Positions 39,984 through 53,899 of a DNA stretch of 64,000 bases are shown piece after piece. The position numbers and the translations under genes are program-made. A model generated the notes under the pieces. The model saw nothing but the letters and a program-made list of their open reading frames with translations. It did no database searches and was not told the DNA's origin. Origin of the DNA: an uncultured Eubacteriales bacterium. Its GTDB lineage: Bacteria; Bacillota; Clostridia; Christensenellales; Aristaeellaceae. Each line of letters starts with the position of its first letter. Position 1 is the first letter of the stretch. The DNA is taken from the NCBI GenBank assembly GCA_900315315.1, contig OMYT01000008.1:27585-91584 (forward strand). Direction: 5' to 3'.

Positions 39984-41444
39984 TTACATCAGCGGCCTCA
40001 CGGCCTCATACAGTTTTTGATACCGTTCATAGATTTTCATATATTTCGCGTGCATCTCCGGCCTCGGTTCATAGGTTTCCGCCTCCCGGACCATGTGCTT
40101 TGCCGCCTCTTCCAGGCCGGTGTACAGTCCGGCTGCGATGCCGGTCAGCATCGCGGAGCCCACCGTTCCCGCGTCCGACGTCTTCAGCGCGGTTATCGGC
40201 AGGTTCAGCACATCCGCCTTGATCTGCATCCAGGCCCGGCTTTTCGCGCCTCCGCCCGTGGCGTGCAGTTTTTCAAAGTGAATCCCCGATCCCGCCAGCG
40301 CCTCATAATTCAGCCGCATCTCATATGCCACGCCTTCCATGCAGGCCCGATAGATCGTCGGTCCGTCTGTGGCTGTTGTCAGGCCAAGGATCGCTCCTTT
40401 CGATCCCATGTCCAGGCTCGGCGTTCCCGATCCGGCAAAATGCGGCAGCACCAGCAGCCCGGTCGGCTCGTCCGCGGTGTATCCGGCTTCCATGGTCTCG
40501 TATGTTTCGCCTTTCCCGAAAGTTTCCAGGCACCAGCGGATCAGCGCGCCTCCTGTGCTGGAAAAAGCGTATGTCACATACTTTCCGGCTGCGGCATAAG
40601 GCACCGCGCAGAAGGATCCCCGGCTCATGACCGAAAGATCCGGCAGGCTGTCATATACGGGCGTCAGGCACTCGGAGGTTCCGGCGCCGTCCACTGCCGT
40701 GCGGCCGTCAAACGCGCCGGCGCCCACTGCCGCAGCCACCTGGTCGTGACTTACAGAAACAATCCGGCAGTCCGGATTCAGCCCGGTCCGCTTCGCAATC
40801 TCCGGTAAAATGCATCCTGCCTCGGTGCCTGTCGGAACCGGTTTGCTCATCAGGCGGATGTCGATCTCCGCAGCGTCAAACATCTCCCGGCTCCAGGTCA
40901 GGGTATTGATGTCAAAGGCCATCGTCCGTGCCGCCAGCGAGAAGTCGATCTGCGCCCTGCCGGTCAGCCGCCGAACCGCAAAGTCCTCTATCAGGAAAAT
41001 ATGTTTTGCCGCGGCACAGACTTCCGGCCGGTGTCGTTTGATCCACATGATCTTCGGAATGGAATACATTTCGCTTGGTTTCACACCGGTGATCCGCGTG
41101 ATGCGTTCTTCTCCCAGTTTGCGGCTCAGTTCCGCACACTCTTCCGCCCCTCTCGGATCCGTGTAGAGCATCGCCGGATGCAGCGGATGATCCGCGTTGT
41201 CTGTCATCACAAAGGTTTCGCCGAAACTCGTAACGCCGATTCCCGCGATATCCTTATATTGCTCCGCCATCTCCCGGATCACCGCGTAAACGCTGTCCAT
41301 CAGGGCAGCCGCGTCGATCTCATGCCCGCTCATATCCCGGCGCACGGCGTATTCCCGGTACGCTTTCCCGAGGCGCTCCCCGTTTTCATTGAACACCGTC
41401 AGTTTACATCCGGTCGTTCCGATATCCAGCCCTGCAATCTTCAT
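39984..41444 (-). CDS. FGGY-family carbohydrate kinase (xylulokinase-like)
   Basis: A 486-residue sugar kinase with the ATPase fold: MKIAGLDIGTTGCKLTVF at the N-terminus, GIGVTSFGETFVMTD, and the second-domain FAGSGTPSLDMGSKGAILGL and LHATGGGAKSRAWMQI adenosine motif. FGGY kinases phosphorylate ketoses, polyols or pentuloses. The adjacent class II aldolase implies that its product is split by aldol cleavage. ATG 41444 is preceded by GAGGATAAGGA. The two adjacent sugar importers are the probable suppliers. Confidence 0.9.
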   Translation of the reverse strand: MKIAGLDIGTTGCKLTVFNENGERLGKAYREYAVRRDMSGHEIDAAALMDSVYAVIREMAEQYKDIAGIGVTSFGETFVMTDNADHPLHPAMLYTDPRGAEECAELSRKLGEERITRITGVKPSEMYSIPKIMWIKRHRPEVCAAAKHIFLIEDFAVRRLTGRAQIDFSLAARTMAFDINTLTWSREMFDAAEIDIRLMSKPVPTGTEAGCILPEIAKRTGLNPDCRIVSVSHDQVAAAVGAGAFDGRTAVDGAGTSECLTPVYDSLPDLSVMSRGSFCAVPYAAAGKYVTYAFSSTGGALIRWCLETFGKGETYETMEAGYTADEPTGLLVLPHFAGSGTPSLDMGSKGAILGLTTATDGPTIYRACMEGVAYEMRLNYEALAGSGIHFEKLHATGGGAKSRAWMQIKADVLNLPITALKTSDAGTVGSAMLTGIAAGLYTGLEEAAKHMVREAETYEPRPEMHAKYMKIYERYQKLYEAVRPLM

Positions 41445-43118: not shown

Positions 43119-44777
43119 TTATTTCTTTTGCACATACTTTAAACAGTCGATCGTCACAGCAGCCAGAATGATGATGCCGGAGAAGACAAACTGCAGGTTC
43201 GTATCCACGCCGAGGATCGTCAGGGAGTAAGTCAAAGCGGTGAACACCAGTACGCCGACCACAATGCCCTGGATCTTACCGATACCACCCTTAAAGGAAA
43301 TACCGCCGACCACGCACGCCGCAATAGCATCGGTCTCCCATCCCTGACCATATGCTGCAGAGCCCGAGCCAACCATGCGGATGCATTCCAGCCAGGAGCC
43401 AAACCCGTAAAGAACACCGGCAATAACGAAGGCTGTGATCGTGACTTTGAATACAGAGATACCGGATGCAGCGGCTGCTTCAGGATTACCGCCTACGGCA
43501 TACATGTTCTTGCCCAGCTTGGTTTTGTTCCAGACAAAGTACATGATCAGGACTGCCGCAACCGCCCACAGGATAATTGTCGGGAACTGTCCGCCGAAAA
43601 TCTTCGGCATGATGGTCTTGTTGATCGACATCTCAATCGCGCCAAAGGAAACGCCCTTCGTCGCGAAGGTAATCAGGCCGAACATAATCAGCATGTTCGC
43701 CATGGTTGAGATAAACGGGTGGATCTTGAACCGGGCAGTGAAGAAACCGGCAATTGTACTGAACAATGTCGTAACAACGCAGCAGACCACCAGCGCCAGT
43801 ATGATCCTGCCCCCGATGGAAATGGAGGTAAAGTCATAAACCGTGTCAAACAACGCGCCGGTATTGATCCCCTTATGCATGATCATGGTACAGAGCACCA
43901 TGCTTGTACCAACCATACGGCCCACGGACAGATCCGTACCACCCAGGAGGATCAGGCCGCCAACCCCCAGTGCCAGGAACATCCGTGGCGAAGCCGCCTG
44001 CAGGATATTCAGAATATTGTTCATTGTCAGCAGCTGGGTATGTTTGATAATCGGAGTCAGGATACACAGCAGAATGAAAACAAACAGGATTGCAATGTAT
44101 AATCCGTTCTTCAGCAGGAATTGCTTGATGTTGAATGTATACTTATAATTCTCCCACTTCTGCTTCTGTTTCTCACTGAAGGTAAACTTTGACAGCCGAA
44201 GCAGATCGATCAGATGATATCGGTAGGCGAATGCATCGTGCTGCCTGTCTTTGATCAATTGCTGCGTAGCTTCGTATTTCAGTTTCGCATCAAAAAGTTT
44301 GTTTTTGAATACGTACTTTTCTTCCTTTATGTCTGCAGGATTGGACAGTTTGGCCAATTCAGCCTGATGGTCTTTTTTCAGCTTATCAATTTCAACCTTA
44401 TAGCTCTCCGCTTCAATGGCCATCTGCGCCTTGCAGGACTCGGCGATTTTGTTATAGTACTCCTGATCGTAGTGTTCATCCAGATACTGTACGGCTTCAT
44501 TGATCAGTTTTTTGACTTCCGGATTGTTTTTCTGCTCAATTGCCTTTGCTTCCGCCAGTTTTTTTCTGTCCTCGGCAATAATCGCGGCCTTTTCTTCCTT
44601 GGTGTAATTTGCGTTTTCACGCGTAACCGCAATATGGTTGTTCAGGGCAATAATCTGATCGGTTCCGTCAGCACGCAATGCGTTTATCTTTTCCTGTATT
44701 TTTCCGATATGATCATCAATTGGCTGAAGTAGTGCCTTTTCCTCCTCAGCAGTAAGCATTACATCCTTATTTTCCAT
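43119..44777 (-). CDS. Galactose-type ABC permease (MglC-like) with long charged N-terminal helical extension
   Basis: A 552-residue protein. Residues ~225-552 are a standard CUT2 permease: first span LYIAILFVFILLCILTP, then LALGVGGLILLGGTDLSVGRMVG and GGISFKGGIGKIQG. E. coli MglC has 336 residues; here ~220 extra residues precede the first span. They are very Lys/Glu-rich with heptad-like stretches (for example EEKAAIIAEDRKKLAEAKAI and KVEIDKLKKDHQAELAKL), predicted cytoplasmic coiled coil. ATG 44777 has AGGAGGAG seven bases upstream, and the ORF is continuous, so the extension is genuine. It overlaps the ATPase gene by 19 bp. Confidence 0.88.
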   Translation of the reverse strand: MENKDVMLTAEEEKALLQPIDDHIGKIQEKINALRADGTDQIIALNNHIAVTRENANYTKEEKAAIIAEDRKKLAEAKAIEQKNNPEVKKLINEAVQYLDEHYDQEYYNKIAESCKAQMAIEAESYKVEIDKLKKDHQAELAKLSNPADIKEEKYVFKNKLFDAKLKYEATQQLIKDRQHDAFAYRYHLIDLLRLSKFTFSEKQKQKWENYKYTFNIKQFLLKNGLYIAILFVFILLCILTPIIKHTQLLTMNNILNILQAASPRMFLALGVGGLILLGGTDLSVGRMVGTSMVLCTMIMHKGINTGALFDTVYDFTSISIGGRIILALVVCCVVTTLFSTIAGFFTARFKIHPFISTMANMLIMFGLITFATKGVSFGAIEMSINKTIMPKIFGGQFPTIILWAVAAVLIMYFVWNKTKLGKNMYAVGGNPEAAAASGISVFKVTITAFVIAGVLYGFGSWLECIRMVGSGSAAYGQGWETDAIAACVVGGISFKGGIGKIQGIVVGVLVFTALTYSLTILGVDTNLQFVFSGIIILAAVTIDCLKYVQKK

Positions 44778-46300
44778 GTCATTTCTCCTCCTATCCACAG
44801 ATATTTCGCGCTAAGTCTCAGGAGTTCTTCCTGGTCGGTCTCTTTGGTGTTGACGATACCGGCCAGGCGTCCGTTCGACATGACGCCGATCCGATTCGTG
44901 ATACCTAATATTTCAGGCATCTCGGAGGAAACGACAATGATCGTCTTCCCCATCTTCGCCATCTTGATAATCAGTTCATATATTTCATATTTTGCACCAA
45001 CATCGATACCGCGTGTCGGTTCATCCATCAGAAAAACTTCAGGCGCACGTTCAAGCCACTTGCCGAAGATCACTTTCTGCTGATTGCCGCCGGACAGGGC
45101 TGTAATGGCATCAGTCGGCCCCATGCACTTTGTATGCATGACATTGATCTCGTTGGCAGTTGCCTTGACCATCTTTTCTTTGGAAAGTGCAATCCCTGTC
45201 ATATAATGCGACAGGTTGGTAATCGTTGTATTGAAAGTCAGATCACCTTCCAGAAAAAGACCTGTGGCTTTACGCTCTTCCGTAATCATGGCAAAGCCGT
45301 GATCCATTGCTTCCCTTGAATTGTTGAAGTTAATCAGCCGGCCGTTGAAATAAACCCGTCCGGCGGCTCTGGTTCGTACACCGAACATGGTTTCAAGCAA
45401 TTCTGTCCGTCCTGCGCCGACCAATCCATACAGACCGAAGATTTCGCCTTTTCGCACGTCGAACGAAATATCCAGCAGTTTCGGTTCAAACTTTGTGGAA
45501 AGGTTCTGTACTGAAAGGACTGTTTCGCCCGGATGATTGTCCACCGGCGGAAAGCGGTTGTCCAGGGTCCGGCCCACCATGGCGGCGATCAGCTCATTCA
45601 TGTTGGTTTTCTTCGTTTCCCTGGTCAGAACCATTTTGCCGTCCCGAAGCACGGAAACCTCATCGCAAATCTCAAAAATCTCATCCATTTTATGAGAGAT
45701 ATAGACCAGAGATATTCCCTGCTCCTTAAGGTTTCTCATCATCTCAAACAGTTTGGCAACCTCTTTCACTGTCAGAGAGGATGTCGGCTCGTCGAGCACA
45801 ATCAGCTTTGCATTGTAGGATACCGCCTTGGCGATTTCCACCATCTGCCGTGCGGAAACTGACATGGTCTTCATCGGGGCTGTCAGATTGACAGTCATAT
45901 CCAGCCTTCTGAAAAGTTCGGAAGCCTCTGTCTTCATCCGGGCCTCATCCACAACGCCCCGTTTCATCGGATAGCGTCCGAGGAACAGATTGTCCAGCAC
46001 ATTCCGTTCCAGGCACTGGTTCAGTTCCTGGTGTACCATGGCTATGCCGTTCTCAAGCGCCATCTTCGGGCCGGAAAAGTTGATTTCCTTCCCGTCCAGA
46101 ATAATGGTACCCTCATCTTTCTGGTATGTTCCGAAAAGGCATTTCATCATGGTGGATTTGCCCGCGCCGTTCTCCCCCATCAACCCCATGATGCTGCCCC
46201 GCTTGACATCGAGGTCAATGTGGTCGAGAACACGGTTACGGCCAAATGATTTACACATGTCCCGGATTGACAGGACAATATTTGCTTCCTGTTCAGCCAT
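44759..46300 (-). CDS. Galactose-type ABC transporter ATPase (MglA-like)
   Basis: A 513-residue double ATPase. N-domain: Walker [12 protein letters not shown], signature MSVSARQMVEIAKAV, Walker B LIVLDEPTSS. C-domain: GAGRTELLETMFG, signature [14 protein letters not shown], Walker B VFLMDEPTRG. The tail continues into the start of the permease gene. It lies ~120 bp after the binding-protein gene across a strong hairpin with a U-tract, which should reduce its expression relative to the binding protein. Best matched to MglA by overall sequence and by neighbours. Confidence 0.9.
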   Translation of the reverse strand: MAEQEANIVLSIRDMCKSFGRNRVLDHIDLDVKRGSIMGLMGENGAGKSTMMKCLFGTYQKDEGTIILDGKEINFSGPKMALENGIAMVHQELNQCLERNVLDNLFLGRYPMKRGVVDEARMKTEASELFRRLDMTVNLTAPMKTMSVSARQMVEIAKAVSYNAKLIVLDEPTSSLTVKEVAKLFEMMRNLKEQGISLVYISHKMDEIFEICDEVSVLRDGKMVLTRETKKTNMNELIAAMVGRTLDNRFPPVDNHPGETVLSVQNLSTKFEPKLLDISFDVRKGEIFGLYGLVGAGRTELLETMFGVRTRAAGRVYFNGRLINFNNSREAMDHGFAMITEERKATGLFLEGDLTFNTTITNLSHYMTGIALSKEKMVKATANEINVMHTKCMGPTDAITALSGGNQQKVIFGKWLERAPEVFLMDEPTRGIDVGAKYEIYELIIKMAKMGKTIIVVSSEMPEILGITNRIGVMSNGRLAGIVNTKETDQEELLRLSAKYLWIGGEMTWKIRM

Positions 46301-46418: not shown

Positions 46419-47678
46419 TTACTGAAGCTTCACCATGTAGGAAGCAGCGTTGTCCGTCTTCACCATGTTGATCGCAAAGCCGTCATATTCGCCGGGGTTG
46501 CCCAGACGGTCAGTCAGGTTGCTCTCGGTCTGTCCGTCGCCCTTCACGTACTCAACGTTCAGGTTCAGGATCTTGTCATAGTTCTGCAGCTGGGGCACAT
46601 AGGTCGCATTCAGGAAGTTATCGGAGGCGTTGTAAACGCTCAGCCATACCTTCTTGGTGGGAGCCTGCTCTTCAGTCAGCTGGAAGTTGAACTTCGCGTT
46701 GGGAGCAGTGGCATCCAGGAACGCTTCATAGTTGTCAGCGGTCACCGCGCCGTTCAGAGCGTAGAAGCAGCGGGTCGCTTCATCATAGTAGTACAGGTCA
46801 TCGCTCAGCACGTTGCCGGCAGCGTCGGGAGTGCTGATACCGGTCATGATATCGGCATCGTCCAGGGCGTTGCGCATGGTCCGCAGGGTCAGATAAGCCT
46901 GAACGTCCGCATTCTGGGAAATGGTGCCGCAGTAGCCGTCAGCGATGGCAGCCACAGCGTCGCTGTTGGCGTCATAGCCGAAGGTGGGAACTTTGTTTTC
47001 CTTGGCCCAGCCGTTGAACACAGCCATGCCCATGCCGTCGTTGTTGGAAACGACCACGTCGATCTGATCGCCGAAGGAACCGCTCCAGGTGCCGATCGCG
47101 TTGCCGGCGGTGGGAGCATCCCAGGTCGCGCCAACGGAGCTCTTCATTTCCTGGGAAGCCAGTTCACGGACGATGTAGGTTTTCCCGTCGATTTCGATCT
47201 CGCCGTCCTTGACATCGGTCGCGGAACCGTCGAGGTTGGTGCCGATCGGAGCGGAGTCGACATCGTCGATCGTCGCGATCTCGGTCTTGCCCTGAGAGGC
47301 ATCCGGAACAGCCGTGCCGAGGGCCTTGCGGGCGCCGCGGGTACGGGCAATGGAGTCATTGTGGCCGATGTCGCCGATGCACAGCACGTAACCGATGATG
47401 CCGTCGCCATTGCGGTCGAGGCCTTCGCCATGGGCCTTCAGATAGTCAACAACCATCTGGCCCTGCAGCTCAGCACCCTGCTTTGCGTCGAAACCGACGT
47501 AGTAGGTCTTGCCGTTAAAGTTCAGAGCATCCATGTCCAGTTCACCGGTCGTGCTGTTTGAGGGCTGACGGTTGTACCAGATCACGGGTTTCTCAGCATT
47601 GGGGACATCAGCAGCAGCAATGCTCACGATACCGAGCAGCATCACAGCGGCCACTACCAGAGACAGGATCTTCTTCAT
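46419..47678 (-). CDS. Galactose/glucose-binding protein, apparently circularly permuted (MglB-like)
   Basis: A 419-residue exported protein with signal peptide MKKILSLVVAAVMLLGIVSIAAA. Its mature N-terminus (PVIWYNRQPS, residues 31-40) matches not the start of MglB but its residues ~86-94 (VPVVFFNKEPS). The match continues through YYVGFDAKQG, LDRNGDGIIG, IGHNDSIARTR, TWDAP, VVVSNNDGMGM, TFGYDAN and LNGAVTADNYEAF (MglB's C-terminal end). Only then, after a ~20-residue linker, residues 342-419 match MglB's N-terminal lobe (VWLSVYNASDNF, EYDGFAINMVKTDNAAS). The known sugar ligands have counterparts N36, H106, D108, R112, W186, N212/213, D236, N256, D353 and F355. The calcium loop keeps D88, N90 and D92 but has Ile and Gly at the last two positions. 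Gene is continuous with clear signal peptide and AAGGAGTG. Confidence 0.85.
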   Translation of the reverse strand: MKKILSLVVAAVMLLGIVSIAAADVPNAEKPVIWYNRQPSNSTTGELDMDALNFNGKTYYVGFDAKQGAELQGQMVVDYLKAHGEGLDRNGDGIIGYVLCIGDIGHNDSIARTRGARKALGTAVPDASQGKTEIATIDDVDSAPIGTNLDGSATDVKDGEIEIDGKTYIVRELASQEMKSSVGATWDAPTAGNAIGTWSGSFGDQIDVVVSNNDGMGMAVFNGWAKENKVPTFGYDANSDAVAAIADGYCGTISQNADVQAYLTLRTMRNALDDADIMTGISTPDAAGNVLSDDLYYYDEATRCFYALNGAVTADNYEAFLDATAPNAKFNFQLTEEQAPTKKVWLSVYNASDNFLNATYVPQLQNYDKILNLNVEYVKGDGQTESNLTDRLGNPGEYDGFAINMVKTDNAASYMVKLQ

Positions 47679-47746
47679 AGGAACACACTCCTTTTTAATT
47701 TTTTCATGCGGTTTCCCGCATTGAAACCAAATCTGAATCGGTATGG

Positions 47747-47949: not shown

Positions 47950-48918
47950 TTACTTGATTACCTTCAGCGCTTTCCGGTCAATGGTCAGCGCGACGAAGAT
48001 CAGGAACACGACGCCCTTGATCAGCTGCTGTACCTGCGGCTCATAGCCCAGGATCGACAGTCCGCTGTTCAGCACCGCGTACATCAGCGTACCGACAATG
48101 ATGTTGGTGAACCTCACCTTCGCACCGCCGGTAATGGGCAGGCCGCCCAGCACCAGGGAGATCAGGATCTGTGTTTCCAGCTGGTTGCCGGCCGTGGAGG
48201 TAATGGAACCGACCTTGATTACGTTGACGAAGGCCGCCAGGCCCGTCAGTGCGCCGGCGCACACGAAGGTCAGGAATTTGACCCGGGCCGTGCGGACACC
48301 GGAGAACCGGGCCGCCGTTTCGCCGGAGCCGACCGCTTTTACGTCATTACCGATCCGGGTAAACTTGAACAGGAAGAATGCCACTGTCAGCACAGCCAGC
48401 GTGATTGTAATCTTCAGCCAATCCTGATCCAGCGCCTTGATGGCGTTGCTGGCCGGCACGGCGCTCTCTGTCGTGAAGTAAGCACACACGCCGCGGAACA
48501 GGTACATCGTACAGATCGTAACAATGAAGCTCGGCAGCCGGAACTTCACATGGAAGAAACCGTTCAGAGCGCCGATGGCTGCGCCGGTCAGAATACCGCC
48601 GATGATGGCCAGCGGAATGCTGTGGAAGCTCAGCACGCTGATCACGATGGAAGCCACGCCCAGCGTCGAGCCTTCCGTAAAGTCGATGGAACCCAGCGTC
48701 ATGATAAAGAACACACCGGTGGCTACGATGGTCGGATAATAGATCTGGGAGAACAGCAGCCGCAGTTTCTTCGGCGTCAGGATTTTGCCGTTCGTCATGA
48801 TGTGCATGACGACAATAATGATTACAAAGCCGATCAGCGGCAGAACCGCCTTGAATTTGTCTCCGGTCAGGAATGCGCGGAGTTTGGATTGTTCATTGCT
48901 CTTGTTTTTCTTTTCCAT
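47950..48918 (-). CDS. Sugar ABC transporter permease (CUT2), second permease
   Basis: A 322-residue CUT2 permease with about nine membrane spans. Instead of the usual GGIDLS it has FIMTLGSIDFTEGSTLGVAS, still recognisable as the conserved second-span block. The coupling segment reads LVLGGLPITGGAKVRFTN. It follows the ATPase by ~13 bp and is the last gene of the operon. With the other permease at 50443 it probably forms a heterodimeric channel. Substrate unknown. Confidence 0.87.
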   Translation of the reverse strand: MEKKNKSNEQSKLRAFLTGDKFKAVLPLIGFVIIIVVMHIMTNGKILTPKKLRLLFSQIYYPTIVATGVFFIMTLGSIDFTEGSTLGVASIVISVLSFHSIPLAIIGGILTGAAIGALNGFFHVKFRLPSFIVTICTMYLFRGVCAYFTTESAVPASNAIKALDQDWLKITITLAVLTVAFFLFKFTRIGNDVKAVGSGETAARFSGVRTARVKFLTFVCAGALTGLAAFVNVIKVGSITSTAGNQLETQILISLVLGGLPITGGAKVRFTNIIVGTLMYAVLNSGLSILGYEPQVQQLIKGVVFLIFVALTIDRKALKVIK

Positions 48919-48931
48919 TCTCTCGCCTCCC

Positions 48932-50431
48932 TTATACCATCTTCGCGATCAGGTCTTCTTCACTCAGGTCCGGATTACGGAGGAATTCCCCGTTCACCTT
49001 TCCGTCCTTCATGATGAGGATCCGGTCGGCCATACCAAGCAGTTCCTGGATTTCTTCCGAGATCATGATGATTGCCTTCCCCTGTTTTCTCAGATCGGCC
49101 ATCAGAGCGTAAATCGCCTGCTTGACCTTCACGTCGATACCGCGGGTCGGGGAATCCAGCACCAGAATGTCACTCCCCTTGCCCAGCCAGCGGGCCAGCA
49201 CAACTTTCTGCTTGTTGCCGCCGGAAAGATCGGATACGAACTGATGTACGTTCTGCATCTTGGTCTGCATGTTCTTCGCCTGCTCGTCCGCGAAGCTGGT
49301 CAGCTTCCGGCCGTTCAGCAGGCCATGATTGGCCAGATCCTCCAGGGAAGGCAGAACGATATTGTTCCGGATGGATTCGTTCAGAATTATGGATTCGTTG
49401 TCGCGGTTCTTCGAAGTATAGGCGATGGAATGGCTGATTGCCGTCGGGATATCGTTGATCTTCGTCCCGTCCGCCAGCACGACCGTTCCCTCCCGGTCCC
49501 AGGAAGCGCCGAAAATGGCTTTGCCGATCTCGTGCATACCGCTTTCCGACAAGCCGCCGAAACCGAGGATTTCTCCCTTATGCAGGTCAAAGCTGATATT
49601 GTCCAGTTCGCCCGGCACCGTCACCGACTGAACCGACAGCACCGTATCGCCGGTCACCGGATCATCGTAATCCGTCCGGTAGTAGGCTGATCCGATCTCA
49701 CGGCCGACCATCAGGCGCTTCAGATCATCCTCTGTCACCTGCGGGGATTCGATCGTGTCAATATACTCGCCGTCCCGCAGCACGGATACCGTGTCCGTGT
49801 GGGCCAACACTTCGCTCAGGTCGTGGCTGATGAAAATCACCGAGCGTCCGTCCTCCCGGACCGCGTCCATAATTTTGTACAATTCCAGGCGGCCGTTCTG
49901 GCTCAGGGCTGTGGTCGTTTCATCGATCACCAGGATCTTCGGCTTCATATAGGTCGCCTTGACGATCTCAACCAGTTTCCGGTCCTCGAAATTGTACTGG
50001 TCAATCATGGCCCCTGCCTTGATCTGACCGAAGCCGTAGGAATCCAGCAGTTTCTGGGCTTCCCGGTTCATGGCGCGGGTATCCTTGACGCCCATGCGCA
50101 TGAAGGGTTCCTCATGGCCCAGGTAAATGTTCTCTGCCACGGTCAGGCCGGACAGCGTACCCATTTCCTGCACGATGATGGAAATGCCCTCGTTGTTCGC
50201 CTCTACCTGGTTACGGATATGGAGTTGTTTTCCGTCGAGGGTAAATGTTCCGCCGCCGATCGTGTAGATCCCGCACAGCATCTGGCAGAAAGTGCTCTTT
50301 CCGGAGCCGTTCTCGCCGATCAGGCCGCGGATCTCGCCGGCTGCGATGGTCAGGGATACGTCGTTGACCGCGTGGGTGATGCCGAAACGTTTGTCAATAT
50401 GTTCGGCAACAAGCAATGTCTTCTTATCCAT
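48932..50431 (-). CDS. Sugar ABC transporter ATPase (CUT2)
   Basis: A 499-residue double ATPase. First domain: Walker A GENGSGKSTFCQ, then Walker B ILVIDETTTALS (Glu-Thr-Thr in place of the common Glu-Pro-Thr). Second: signature DLSGGNKQKVVLARW and Walker B ILVLDSPTRG, where Ser replaces the catalytic Glu. The second nucleotide site is therefore degenerate, a known CUT2 tendency. I start at ATG 50431, six bases after GAGGGGG, rather than the GTG at 50446. It lies between the two permease genes, unusual compared with the other three operons here. Confidence 0.88.
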   Translation of the reverse strand: MDKKTLLVAEHIDKRFGITHAVNDVSLTIAAGEIRGLIGENGSGKSTFCQMLCGIYTIGGGTFTLDGKQLHIRNQVEANNEGISIIVQEMGTLSGLTVAENIYLGHEEPFMRMGVKDTRAMNREAQKLLDSYGFGQIKAGAMIDQYNFEDRKLVEIVKATYMKPKILVIDETTTALSQNGRLELYKIMDAVREDGRSVIFISHDLSEVLAHTDTVSVLRDGEYIDTIESPQVTEDDLKRLMVGREIGSAYYRTDYDDPVTGDTVLSVQSVTVPGELDNISFDLHKGEILGFGGLSESGMHEIGKAIFGASWDREGTVVLADGTKINDIPTAISHSIAYTSKNRDNESIILNESIRNNIVLPSLEDLANHGLLNGRKLTSFADEQAKNMQTKMQNVHQFVSDLSGGNKQKVVLARWLGKGSDILVLDSPTRGIDVKVKQAIYALMADLRKQGKAIIMISEEIQELLGMADRILIMKDGKVNGEFLRNPDLSEEDLIAKMV

Positions 50432-50442
50432 ACGCATCCCCC

Positions 50443-51393
50443 TCACTTCACCACGCTGCCCCTGGCGCCGCGTGCGGTCAGGGCAACGATGGCCAGCAGT
50501 GCCGCGCCGGTAACCACGTTCTGGATCGTGGTCGGGGCGCCGAGCGCTACAAACCCGTTAAAGATAATGGAGATGATGAACTCGCCGATCACGATGGCAC
50601 TGATCGGGATTCCGTATTTCCGGAATGCCACGCCGAAGAAGGTGCCCATCAGCGGCTGGAAGTTCCGGCTCATGGTGGTCATTCCGGTCAGGGCGGTCAT
50701 TGTCGTGCCGTAGGACACGGTCAGGATCGCCATGATGCCTACGAAGAAGTGAAGCAGTATGAAGCCGATCAGTTTATACTTCTTCACGTTAATGCCCATG
50801 TTTTTGGCGGTGAACTCGTTCGATCCGATGGCGTTGCAGTATGTGCCGACCTTCGTATAATTCAGGATGAAATACATAAGCACAAACGCCAGGACTGCCA
50901 GGATAATGTTCCCGGGAGCACCGCTGAAGAACCGCAGCTCGGGAGCCAGCGTCTGCTTGACGCCGCCCGCGACGAAAACCGCTACGCATTCAAAAATCAG
51001 CATCAGGCCCACCGTAACGATCATGGAGGGCACGTTCAGCTGATTGTACAGCGTGCCGATCAGCAGGCCGATCAGCGTGCCGCAGCCCAGGCAGCCGACC
51101 ACAAAGCCGACATAGCCGAAATGCTCCGACAGAATGACGCCGACGATAGATGATAAAACAACGTTCGCGCCGACGGCAAAGTCAAACAGGCCCATCACAA
51201 CGATGAAATACAGGCCGCAGCCGCCGACGGAATAAATGATGGAAGACTGCAGATAGGAATACAGATTCGCCGGCGAACCGAAGTTATCCGGCGTCAGAAT
51301 CTTGAATACCGCGTAAAAGAACAGGACCATGGCGAGCAGAATCAGATAGCCGTACGCCCTGGTGCCTTTCAGTTTCTGTAATTTAGCGGGCAT
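50443..51393 (-). CDS. Sugar ABC transporter permease (CUT2), first permease
   Basis: A 316-residue permease. Conserved second-span region reads YFIVVMGLFDFAVGANVVLS, and the cytoplasmic coupling loop corresponds to ALTGMTTMSRNFQPLMGTFFG, divergent from the usual GGTS motif. This makes it a distant CUT2 member. It comes directly after the binding protein, separated by a perfect 11-bp hairpin, and abuts the ATPase. It ends VK-stop overlapping the ATPase ribosome site. Sugar specificity cannot be inferred. Confidence 0.85.
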   Translation of the reverse strand: MPAKLQKLKGTRAYGYLILLAMVLFFYAVFKILTPDNFGSPANLYSYLQSSIIYSVGGCGLYFIVVMGLFDFAVGANVVLSSIVGVILSEHFGYVGFVVGCLGCGTLIGLLIGTLYNQLNVPSMIVTVGLMLIFECVAVFVAGGVKQTLAPELRFFSGAPGNIILAVLAFVLMYFILNYTKVGTYCNAIGSNEFTAKNMGINVKKYKLIGFILLHFFVGIMAILTVSYGTTMTALTGMTTMSRNFQPLMGTFFGVAFRKYGIPISAIVIGEFIISIIFNGFVALGAPTTIQNVVTGAALLAIVALTARGARGSVVK

Positions 51394-51431
51394 AATTCTC
51401 CGTTTTCTCCTTACTCACGTTTTTAAAACCC

Positions 51432-51459
51432 GGGCGGTCGCCGCGCCTGGCGACCGCCC
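51432..51459 (-). promoter_or_regulatory. Intercistronic hairpin after the binding-protein gene
   Basis: Perfect 11-bp GC-rich stem (gggcggtcgcc / ggcgaccgccc) with 6-nt loop, 17 bp after the stop codon, followed by only a weak U run. Equivalent in position to the hairpins after the other three binding-protein genes. Confidence 0.7.
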
Positions 51460-51475
51460 GAATATTCAGGTTAGA

Positions 51476-52597
51476 TTATTTCGCGTGACGGGCCACGACG
51501 TCGTCAACAGACAGCGCGGCGCAGGCAGCGGCCAGATCGTCATAGGACAGTTCAGCCAGAGCCTTGATTTCTTCCTCTGTATAGGGCAGTTCGCTGCCGG
51601 TGAAGTACTGCGCATAAGCGGCATAGCTTTCCGGAGAGTCAACGAACATGTAGGGGAAGATCATCTCATAGTAGCCGTCTTCGCTGGTGGGATAGTTGCC
51701 CTTGATGGCATTGTAAACCATCAGGAAGGCGAAGAAGGGATCCGCGTAGTGTCCGCCGGACTCGGCAGCCATGGCGCCGGTATCCAGTTTGACATCCAGG
51801 TCAGGCAGGAAGTCGGTGGAAACCACAGCGATCTTGCCGGTCAGGCCCTTGGCTTCGATGCCGGCGATAGCGCCCAGCAGGGTATCTCCGCCGCCGCCCG
51901 CAACGATCAGAGCGTCGATGTCGGGATTCGCGTCGATGATGGCTTCAGCAGTCGCGCGGCCGGTATCGGTCGTGGTGCGGCCGTACTGGGGCTCCAGCAG
52001 CTCAACTTTGTCGTCCGGATGAGCGGCGTTCCACTCTTCAACGCCGGCCTTGTAGCCTTCCCAGCGTCCGAGGAAGGTCGCATCGCCGGGTTCCCAGCCT
52101 TCCAGGCCGATCTTGCGGCAGCCCTTGTTGGCCAGGATGGTCACCAGCTGCTTGCCGTTGTCGAACTCGGATTCATGCACAGCACCTACATAGTACTTGG
52201 AGGCCTTCGCCGCAGCATCTTCGTCCGGATAAGCTTCAGGATCGATTACACGGAAGAACTGCGCGACATACATTTCGTTGTCGTTGCAGGTCTTGATAAC
52301 AGAACCCATTTCCGAAGAAGAGGAGTTGCAGATGATCATACCGTCGCAGTCGGCCATTGCCAGCGTCTCGGCGGAAGCCGTAACCTGCTCGGAGATGTGG
52401 GCCTGGTCAACCCACTGAACTTCAACGTCCAGCGCTTCAGCAGCCGCGTCGATCAGGCGCTTGACTTCGCTGCCCAGGGTGTCGGTGGAACTCCAGATGG
52501 AGACGCCGATCTTGATTTTGTCGTCATCCGCATGCGCCGCAACAATCACGCCGCAGAGCATCGTCAGAGCCAGCACGAGAGCAAGGATCTTTTTCAT
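51476..52597 (-). CDS. Sugar ABC transporter substrate-binding protein (periplasmic binding fold type I)
   Basis: A 373-residue exported protein. Signal peptide MKKILALVLALTMLCGVIVAAHA. The fold runs in the normal order: IKIGVSIWSSTDTLGSEVKR, DCDGMIICNSSSSEMGSVIK, YYVGAVHESEFDNGKQ, GLEGWEPGDATFLGRWEGYK, and DALIVAGGGGDTLLGAIAGI. About 60 residues longer than RbsB, mostly at the C-terminus (TEEEIKALAELSYDDLAAAC). I cannot name the sugar; the neighbouring DUF4432 aldose-epimerase-like protein suggests a free aldose. ATG 52597 is set by the signal peptide and AAGGAGGAAA. Confidence 0.87.
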   Translation of the reverse strand: MKKILALVLALTMLCGVIVAAHADDDKIKIGVSIWSSTDTLGSEVKRLIDAAAEALDVEVQWVDQAHISEQVTASAETLAMADCDGMIICNSSSSEMGSVIKTCNDNEMYVAQFFRVIDPEAYPDEDAAAKASKYYVGAVHESEFDNGKQLVTILANKGCRKIGLEGWEPGDATFLGRWEGYKAGVEEWNAAHPDDKVELLEPQYGRTTTDTGRATAEAIIDANPDIDALIVAGGGGDTLLGAIAGIEAKGLTGKIAVVSTDFLPDLDVKLDTGAMAAESGGHYADPFFAFLMVYNAIKGNYPTSEDGYYEMIFPYMFVDSPESYAAYAQYFTGSELPYTEEEIKALAELSYDDLAAACAALSVDDVVARHAK

Positions 52598-52689
52598 GAA
52601 TGATTTCCTCCTTATTTTTTGAAGCTGAACAGACATTTCCCCGGCGGCAGGCGCACCCCGGGCAAACGAACAGCTTTAACGATGATGTG

Positions 52690-52921: not shown

Positions 52922-53899
52922 TTATTCAAATTGAATTGTAACCCTGTTCCGGACTGACTCAAAAGCCCCCAACACAGGCAGCGTCCCGTTTTCCCGTTCC
53001 TGTGCCCGTCCCATGATATAGCAGTTGGTCGGCTCCAGTCCCAGCGCATAGTCCCCGCTGGCCATGCTGCGCCACTCAACCATAAGCGGCAGCGTATCCC
53101 CGGACCAGGAAATCGTCATGGAAACACCGATCTCCGGATTGTCCAGCTGGGCTTTGAATTCGCTGCGCATCTTCTGGAACCAGCACCGTTCCTCTTCCCC
53201 GGAAATCGGTTCATCAAACACGCACTGCTTGTCCATCGCGGCTTTGGCAAACTCCGTCCGCGGGATTGTCTCCCGGTCCTCCGGCAGCGTCAGCTTTGTC
53301 TTCTCGCTCAGCAGCGGATAGCCGAAGTTGCAGTGATAGATCTGCATATACTCCTCATCCCGCGGGGTCAGGTTCGTCACCGTATCCTCCACCGTGACCG
53401 AACTGCCGTAGACCGGGATGCGGATCTGCCGCCGGAGTTCCATCGCCTGCCCGAACAGCGCCGTCTCCCGGATTACGCCCCGGATCAGGATCTCCTCCCC
53501 CGCCATTTCCGTGCAGACCTGTTCAGCTGCCAGGCTGTGGTACCGCCCGTGAAGGGGATGCCATTCCTCCCCGTCCCGGTTGGCCGGACCCGCGTTTCTC
53601 AGGCCGCAGGTGTACAGCAGCCCGCCCGGGAATGTGTTCAGGAATTCATTCTCGTAAGGAAGATCCGTCACCGGGCTGTCGTATCCGTTCTTGGACATCC
53701 AGCTCATGGTCATTCCACGGAACCGGCACTGGCCGATATCCAGCCCGGAGTCCGGAAGGATGTCCAGCTCCAGCCCGCCCGCTGTGCGGACCTCAATAAT
53801 CCCGGTCCCTTTTGCTTTTCCTTCCGCCACAGTCACCCTGCGGACCAGCGCAAGCTGAGCCGGATTGCCGATATATCCTTTTCTTTCCTCGTTCAGCAT
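52922..53899 (-). CDS. DUF4432 family, aldose 1-epimerase-like protein
   Basis: A 325-residue cytoplasmic protein of the galactose-mutarotase-like superfamily. Supporting blocks are LELDILPDSGLDIGQCRFRG, FPGGLLYTCGLRNAGP, WHPLHGRYHSLAAEQV, YMQIYHCNFGYPLLSE and ALGLEPTNCYIMGR. These carry the His residues and the Glu expected for mutarotase-type chemistry. It probably interconverts anomers of a sugar brought in by the importer just downstream, which has its own promoter. Start ATG 53899 follows GACAGGAGAA. Confidence 0.85.
   Translation of the reverse strand: MLNEERKGYIGNPAQLALVRRVTVAEGKAKGTGIIEVRTAGGLELDILPDSGLDIGQCRFRGMTMSWMSKNGYDSPVTDLPYENEFLNTFPGGLLYTCGLRNAGPANRDGEEWHPLHGRYHSLAAEQVCTEMAGEEILIRGVIRETALFGQAMELRRQIRIPVYGSSVTVEDTVTNLTPRDEEYMQIYHCNFGYPLLSEKTKLTLPEDRETIPRTEFAKAAMDKQCVFDEPISGEEERCWFQKMRSEFKAQLDNPEIGVSMTISWSGDTLPLMVEWRSMASGDYALGLEPTNCYIMGRAQERENGTLPVLGAFESVRNRVTIQFE

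Follow-up and report, generated by a model that had tools for sequence, protein, structure and literature searches.

The window analyzed here, a stretch of 64,000 nucleotides from an uncultured Eubacteriales bacterium, holds a gene for a galactose/glucose-binding protein whose parts stand in permuted order, followed on the same strand by genes for an ATPase and a permease. The features are these:

47688..47692, minus strand: ribosome-binding site AGGAG, nine bases before the ATG, read from the sequence
46419..47678, minus strand: permuted galactose/glucose-binding protein (TpMglB-2-like, 419 aa), from Pfam, phmmer and Foldseek
47607..47678, minus strand: Sec signal peptide, residues 1-24, ending ...SIAAA/DV, from the sequence, with the cleavage site placed by eye
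46710..47606, minus strand: residues 25-323, corresponding to the part of E. coli MglB (EcMglB) that starts near residue 84 and ends at the C-terminus, from alignments, borders approximate
46662..46709, minus strand: linker from the old C-terminus to the old N-terminus, about residues 324-339, aligned by eye, borders approximate
46422..46661, minus strand: residues 340-419, corresponding to residues 1-82 of EcMglB, the opening part of its N-lobe (PF18610), from Pfam and profile alignments
44759..46300, minus strand: MglA-type ATPase of the same operon, 513 aa, from the best NCBIfam model (MglA) and a tree
43119..44777, minus strand: MglC-type permease with an N-terminal extension, 552 aa from the ATG at 44777 (listed start GTG 44798), start chosen by eye
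44139..44777, minus strand: the permease extension, about residues 8-220 of the listed reading frame, conserved, predicted helical and probably coiled-coil, from alignments and a model

The first-pass annotation took the binding-protein gene to be intact, with a signal peptide and a ribosome site, and so it is: the reading frame is complete from the ATG at 47678 to the stop at 46419, AGGAG lies upstream and residues 1-24 look Sec-like by eye. No lipobox cysteine was found in the signal peptide, either in the sequence or by script pattern. The later part of the Pfam family Peripla_BP_4 comes first in the protein (profile positions 92-255 at residues 54-273), and Peripla_BP_7 (PF18610) comes last (residues 341-411; 130.4 bits against a cut-off of 36.8). 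The NCBIfam model of canonical MglB, NF011924, matches in two stretches, with a score below its curated cut-off. The linker, earlier put at about 20 residues, comes to about 16 when aligned by eye.

By BLAST, the main linear match to EcMglB places residues 7-249 of the mature protein on EcMglB residues 86-274, and a match over the whole length of EcMglB was obtained only after rotation. The Smith-Waterman score is 227 for the linear comparison and 252 after rotation with a cut placed around residues 285-343, and the profile-level score rises from 218.8 over 197 columns to 241.5 over 266 columns; no linear alignment bettered the rotated one. A phmmer search of PDB sequences found MglB-2 of Treponema pallidum (TpMglB-2; 5jx2, 6bgd and 6bgc) at 2e-93 to 1.8e-91, collinear over residues 28-418 in two stretches (28-130 and 155-418) that are interrupted by about 24 residues extra to the window protein after residue 130. 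The next among the 17 PDB sequences listed, glucose/galactose-binding and other CUT2 binding proteins, matched at 7e-24 or weaker, with their displayed stretches confined to residues 26-276 and none reaching the last part of the protein. An AlphaFold2 model built from 31 aligned homologues (pLDDT 84, pTM 0.85) gave the same picture in Foldseek: E-values of 6.6e-39 to 1.6e-36 and query TM-scores of 0.76-0.79 over 396-402 columns with the three TpMglB-2 structures (for 5jx2, E=6.6e-39 and TM 0.76/0.81), against 1.3e-12 to 2.4e-11 and 0.45-0.47 over 294-299 columns with canonical glucose/galactose-binding proteins.

The first-pass annotation had proposed a natural circular permutation of the galactose/glucose-binding protein, and the rotated alignments, the end-to-end agreement in order with TpMglB-2 and the match of the predicted model to a solved permuted structure all uphold it. 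Its further claim, that no natural permutation had been described in this family, falls because one was described in 2016. According to the available portion of Brautigam et al. (2016; PMC4990184), TpMglB-2 (Tp0684) was solved, its topology was termed circularly permuted, and after permutation it was superposed on MglB at 2.2 Å over 276 atoms. The same source reports that TpMglB-2 binds glucose and changes conformation, places the permuted form in treponemes and many Gram-positive bacteria, gut commensals among many of them, and puts forward the names 'Type Ic' or 'Cluster Bc' for the class (PMC4990184). That paper alone turned up in our literature search on the permutation of TpMglB-2-like proteins. 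The permutation is already known, a correct observation made from raw sequence and already in print. We are confident that the window protein is a circular permutation of MglB, belonging to the published 'Type Ic / Cluster Bc' class and serving as the binding protein of an mgl-type (CUT2) importer. A second paper on TpMglB-2 reportedly appeared in 2018.

The sugar-contact residues were compared in a joint alignment of the rotated window protein and every fourth of the remaining permuted proteins with 17 canonical ones (9 of the 83 permuted proteins were dropped, the script pattern having missed their cut point). EcMglB residues D14, F16, N91, H152, D154, R158, W183, N211 and D236 correspond to D353, F355, N36, H106, D108, R112, W186, N213 and D236 of the window protein. 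Nine of the ten glucose contacts are therefore identical, and the tenth, N256, is Q255. The earlier statement that all the main contacts have counterparts holds, except that it had left out N213 and had named N256 where the counterpart is Q255. Ligands of the calcium site differ in part from those of EcMglB (Q142 is G96 and E205 is D207). In TpMglB-2, the contact equivalents carry the same letters as in the window protein, Q at the N256 position included, except for N311 in place of D14, and the calcium site is altered relative to EcMglB there too (PMC4990184, available portion).

Perhaps the fold is permuted as described and the protein recognizes another sugar or acts as a sensor, rather than serving in glucose uptake. 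Sugar specificity is changeable within CUT2, and a second CUT2-like cassette and a gene that looks by eye like a sugar kinase lie alongside. The nine identical contacts and the intact transporter gene cluster make this reading unlikely.

A different doubt concerns the moved segment, whose origin from another gene was left open in 2016 (PMC4990184, available portion). The rival raised there is that no true permutation took place: an MglB ancestor lost its N-terminal part and gained at its C-terminus an unrelated segment, which came to the same fold by convergence. The reported identity for the T. pallidum segment is only 13% (PMC4990184), and tests with single sequences leave room for the idea. 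When the last 85 residues of the window protein were compared with the first 110 of EcMglB, 45 of 1000 shuffles scored as well. An HMM of the moved segment run against PDB sequences matched no canonical MglB at E<=10, only the three TpMglB-2 sequences. When each of 17 single canonical sequences took the place of the profile, scores ran from 10.2 to 22.6, several of them out of register, and E. coli AlsB alone, out of register, stood above EcMglB alone (19.9 against 17.4).

Comparison of profile with profile argues against convergence. With HHalign, a profile of the last 85 residues from 83 permuted proteins aligned to the 17 canonical proteins with a score of 28.8, in register over 67 columns, at a probability of 28%. 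As a control the columns were shuffled, a lenient test, since shuffling also breaks up the local order typical of the fold. That score was reached in one set by 1 of 300 shuffles (one of the first 300, with the smaller profile, exceeding the real score) and in another by 0 of 1500 (1/1800 together), and not one of the 1500 gave a match in that register as long as 50 columns. The score was 15.8 with the columns reversed and 11.3 with canonical MglB stripped of its first 110 residues. With the proteins of Treponema saccharophilum and Agathobacter rectalis added, the alignment extends over 83 columns, window residues 335-419 on EcMglB 1-82, end to end, with a score of 29.8 and a probability of 33%; none of 1000 shuffles scored as high, the highest reaching 25.9. 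D14 and F16 are matched inside a 'DNF' common to the moved segment and EcMglB. The alignment of sequence profiles in register thus favours true permutation over convergence, even with HHalign's own probability at just 33% and the single-sequence tests weak, and we regard convergence as quite unlikely. That the moved segment is homologous to the N-lobe of MglB, making the permutation a true one, is likely, though not proven.

A misassembly or chimera of two MglB fragments, conceivable in an assembly of 197 contigs with 89% completeness, is scarcely credible in the face of the same order in two plasmid records, in solved structures and in all 80 loci fetched (the best 80 of 172 relatives found by a pattern scan of genome contigs). 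Along with that order in related genomes, the presence of a 96% identical protein in another assembly (L001) sustains the earlier judgment that this is no misassembled fragment.

Identity to the window protein runs from 68 to 96% over 82 other proteins (those from the best 80 of 172, plus two more). The distribution of proteins with PF18610 looks patchy. Counting the window's own genome each time, the domain occurs in 3 of 291 genomes of the class, in 2 of 299 of the phylum and in 5 of 61 relatives' genomes, all five among the 37 of its own genus; many of those 61 are incomplete, so absence is soft. Among plasmid records, 23 have a match, and in 2 of these, from T. saccharophilum and A. rectalis, the match takes in most of the protein. 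In A. rectalis (L147), the permuted operon is borne by a plasmid of 252 kb, with genes for integrase and IS91 transposase nearby, a setting that fits the horizontal spread suggested in PMC4990184 (available portion). Behind the operon there come genes for a two-component system and a further substrate-binding protein.

A lipid tether is common in the permuted class, yet it is no defining feature, and the window protein lacks the lipobox cysteine for one. The script pattern was run on 82 permuted proteins, L013 having been omitted as cut short, and found a lipobox in 52; with L028, also cut, set aside, 29 of 81 are without it, the window protein among them. The sample leans toward the window, as 24 of the 30 counted as lacking sit in its clade of 31. 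On the tree, the starred branches force at least 4 changes, and parsimony gives 8, with L028 entered as being without a lipobox. A lipoprotein signal peptidase gene is present in the host genome. Since 29 of 81 relatives persist in the permuted topology with no recognizable lipobox, the topology would seem, from these sequences, to require no lipid tether. It may nonetheless have arisen first in a tethered ancestor, or anchoring may be achieved by other means.

Binding protein, MglA and MglC follow one another on one strand in all 74 loci that hold the three genes (80 loci examined, the best of 172). The best NCBIfam models for the ATPase and permease are MglA (673.8 bits) and MglC (262.2 bits), both under the equivalog cut-offs (828 and 386). 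A quick tree built from 37 ATPases puts the 17 MglAs of permuted operons in one clade (100), on a long stem inside the Mgl clade (98). The placement is safe only in this coarse form, since the remaining CUT2 ATPases sit on very long branches and the program gave a warning about how these join. In L023, the distance from the permuted binding protein to the point where MglA begins to align is about 1.17 kb (7197 to about 8365), against 81-363 bases in each of the remaining 73 three-gene loci. The MglA of the window runs 12 codons beyond the stop of L001 and L002, overlapping the ribosome site of mglC (44759-44798, minus strand), and ATG 44777 is more likely the start of mglC than GTG 44798. Directly upstream of the operon (47950-52636, minus strand) is the second CUT2-like cassette, consisting of two permeases, an ATPase and a binding protein, and this last (51476-52636) by eye has no obvious lipobox either. 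Judged by eye from translations, a sugar-kinase-like gene (39984-41444, minus strand) and an aldose-epimerase-like gene (52922-53899, minus strand) flank both transporters.

The first-pass annotation had called the neighboring permease unusual, and it is. Its N-terminal extension, about 210 residues, conserved and helical by prediction, is present in every one of the 69 loci (best 80 of 172 fetched) where the permease is complete, with 539-568 aligned residues. In 5 of the 80, a contig end cuts the permease to a piece that includes the extension, and 6 have no permease; in these the contig stops ahead of MglA, inside it or just past the binding protein. For comparison, 16 high-scoring canonical-MglB stretches were chosen from matches in the class; 13 hold MglA and MglC, and the other 3 have no such permease. 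The permeases of all 13 canonical operons are without the extension, their reading frames (334-372 codons) aligning only from residue 206-253 of the window permease onward. E. coli MglC is annotated at 336 aa. A profile of the extension matches exactly those 3 of 291 class genomes that have PF18610.

Helices are predicted in the extension at 17-42, 46-61, 67-150 and 154-201, where residues 21-200 reach a pLDDT of about 90; the pTM of the model as a whole is poor (0.57). No family in Pfam or NCBIfam matched the extension. Against PDB sequences, the permease alignment found nothing at E<=0.01 and the extension nothing at E<=1, and Foldseek with the permease model found nothing at E<=0.001. F-BAR domains and similar weak Foldseek look-alikes of that model were not taken as evidence, a match to NF045709 (E 0.49) was put down to noise, and two unannotated faecal records in a phage collection that match the extension were taken as bacterial DNA. 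The extension is probably cytoplasmic, to judge from its charge, the absence of a signal peptide and the usual topology of the family.

The available portion of PMC4990184 reports that homologues of Tp0686, the cognate permease of TpMglB-2, are distributed similarly, in the same organisms. A literature search for Tp0686 returned only that 2016 paper, and one for the permease extension, mostly outside subscription journals, returned none, so an earlier mention is possible. The pairing of permuted binding protein with extended permease looks less well documented than the permutation itself.

In the reading favoured here, the gene supplies an mgl-type (CUT2) ABC importer, of the 'Type Ic / Cluster Bc' class, with its binding protein. 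The chain starts near MglB residue 84, runs to the old C-terminus and continues through a new linker to the old N-terminal 82 residues, an arrangement that may have come from a tandem duplication whose copies fused and lost their outer parts. The exported protein would bind D-glucose (perhaps D-galactose) in the cleft between its two lobes, close on it and hand it to the MglC-type permease, import being driven by the MglA-type ATPase encoded downstream. Glucose binding and closure are taken from the available portion of the TpMglB-2 paper (PMC4990184), and by analogy the window protein would act likewise in its host. We suggest tentatively, as somewhat short of an even prospect, that the permuted protein marks a distinct mgl importer subtype, common to Clostridia and treponemes, where permutation and extended permease are inseparable, the extension being a conserved cytoplasmic helical (coiled-coil) domain of about 210 residues and of no known family. 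The two changes would be functionally linked, the domain perhaps clustering the transporter or linking it with some partner in the cytoplasm. Why the permuted form persists is a question that its pairing with a long permease makes testable. Also, two questions raised in PMC4990184 (available portion) are addressed here: whether the moved segment is homologous (by profiles, probably yes) and whether tethering is the reason for the topology (29 of 81 are without a lipobox).

Canonical E. coli MglB (GGBP; NF011924) has fold elements in common with the window protein, as well as nine of ten glucose contacts, but the segments of the window protein come in permuted order, and its NCBIfam score is 89.6 against a cut-off of 420. 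The operon on plasmid pTS2 of T. saccharophilum (L146) keeps the gene order of the window: permuted protein, ATPase, then a permease of 562 aa. The latter is 42% identical to the window permease over 574 columns, and its extension alone is detectable by pairwise BLAST (34% over 85 residues, 2e-10). This organism, however, is a spirochaete, and its binding protein is 41-42% identical to that of the window and by eye carries a lipobox. TpMglB-2 (Tp0684; 5jx2, 6bgc, 6bgd) shares with the window protein the permuted order, the fold, the binding residues, including Gln at the N256 position, and the altered calcium site; its cognate permease gene is tp0686, homologues of which occur in the same organisms (PMC4990184, available portion). 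The window protein differs from it in having D at the D14 position (N311 in TpMglB-2), some 24 residues more after residue 130 and no lipobox.
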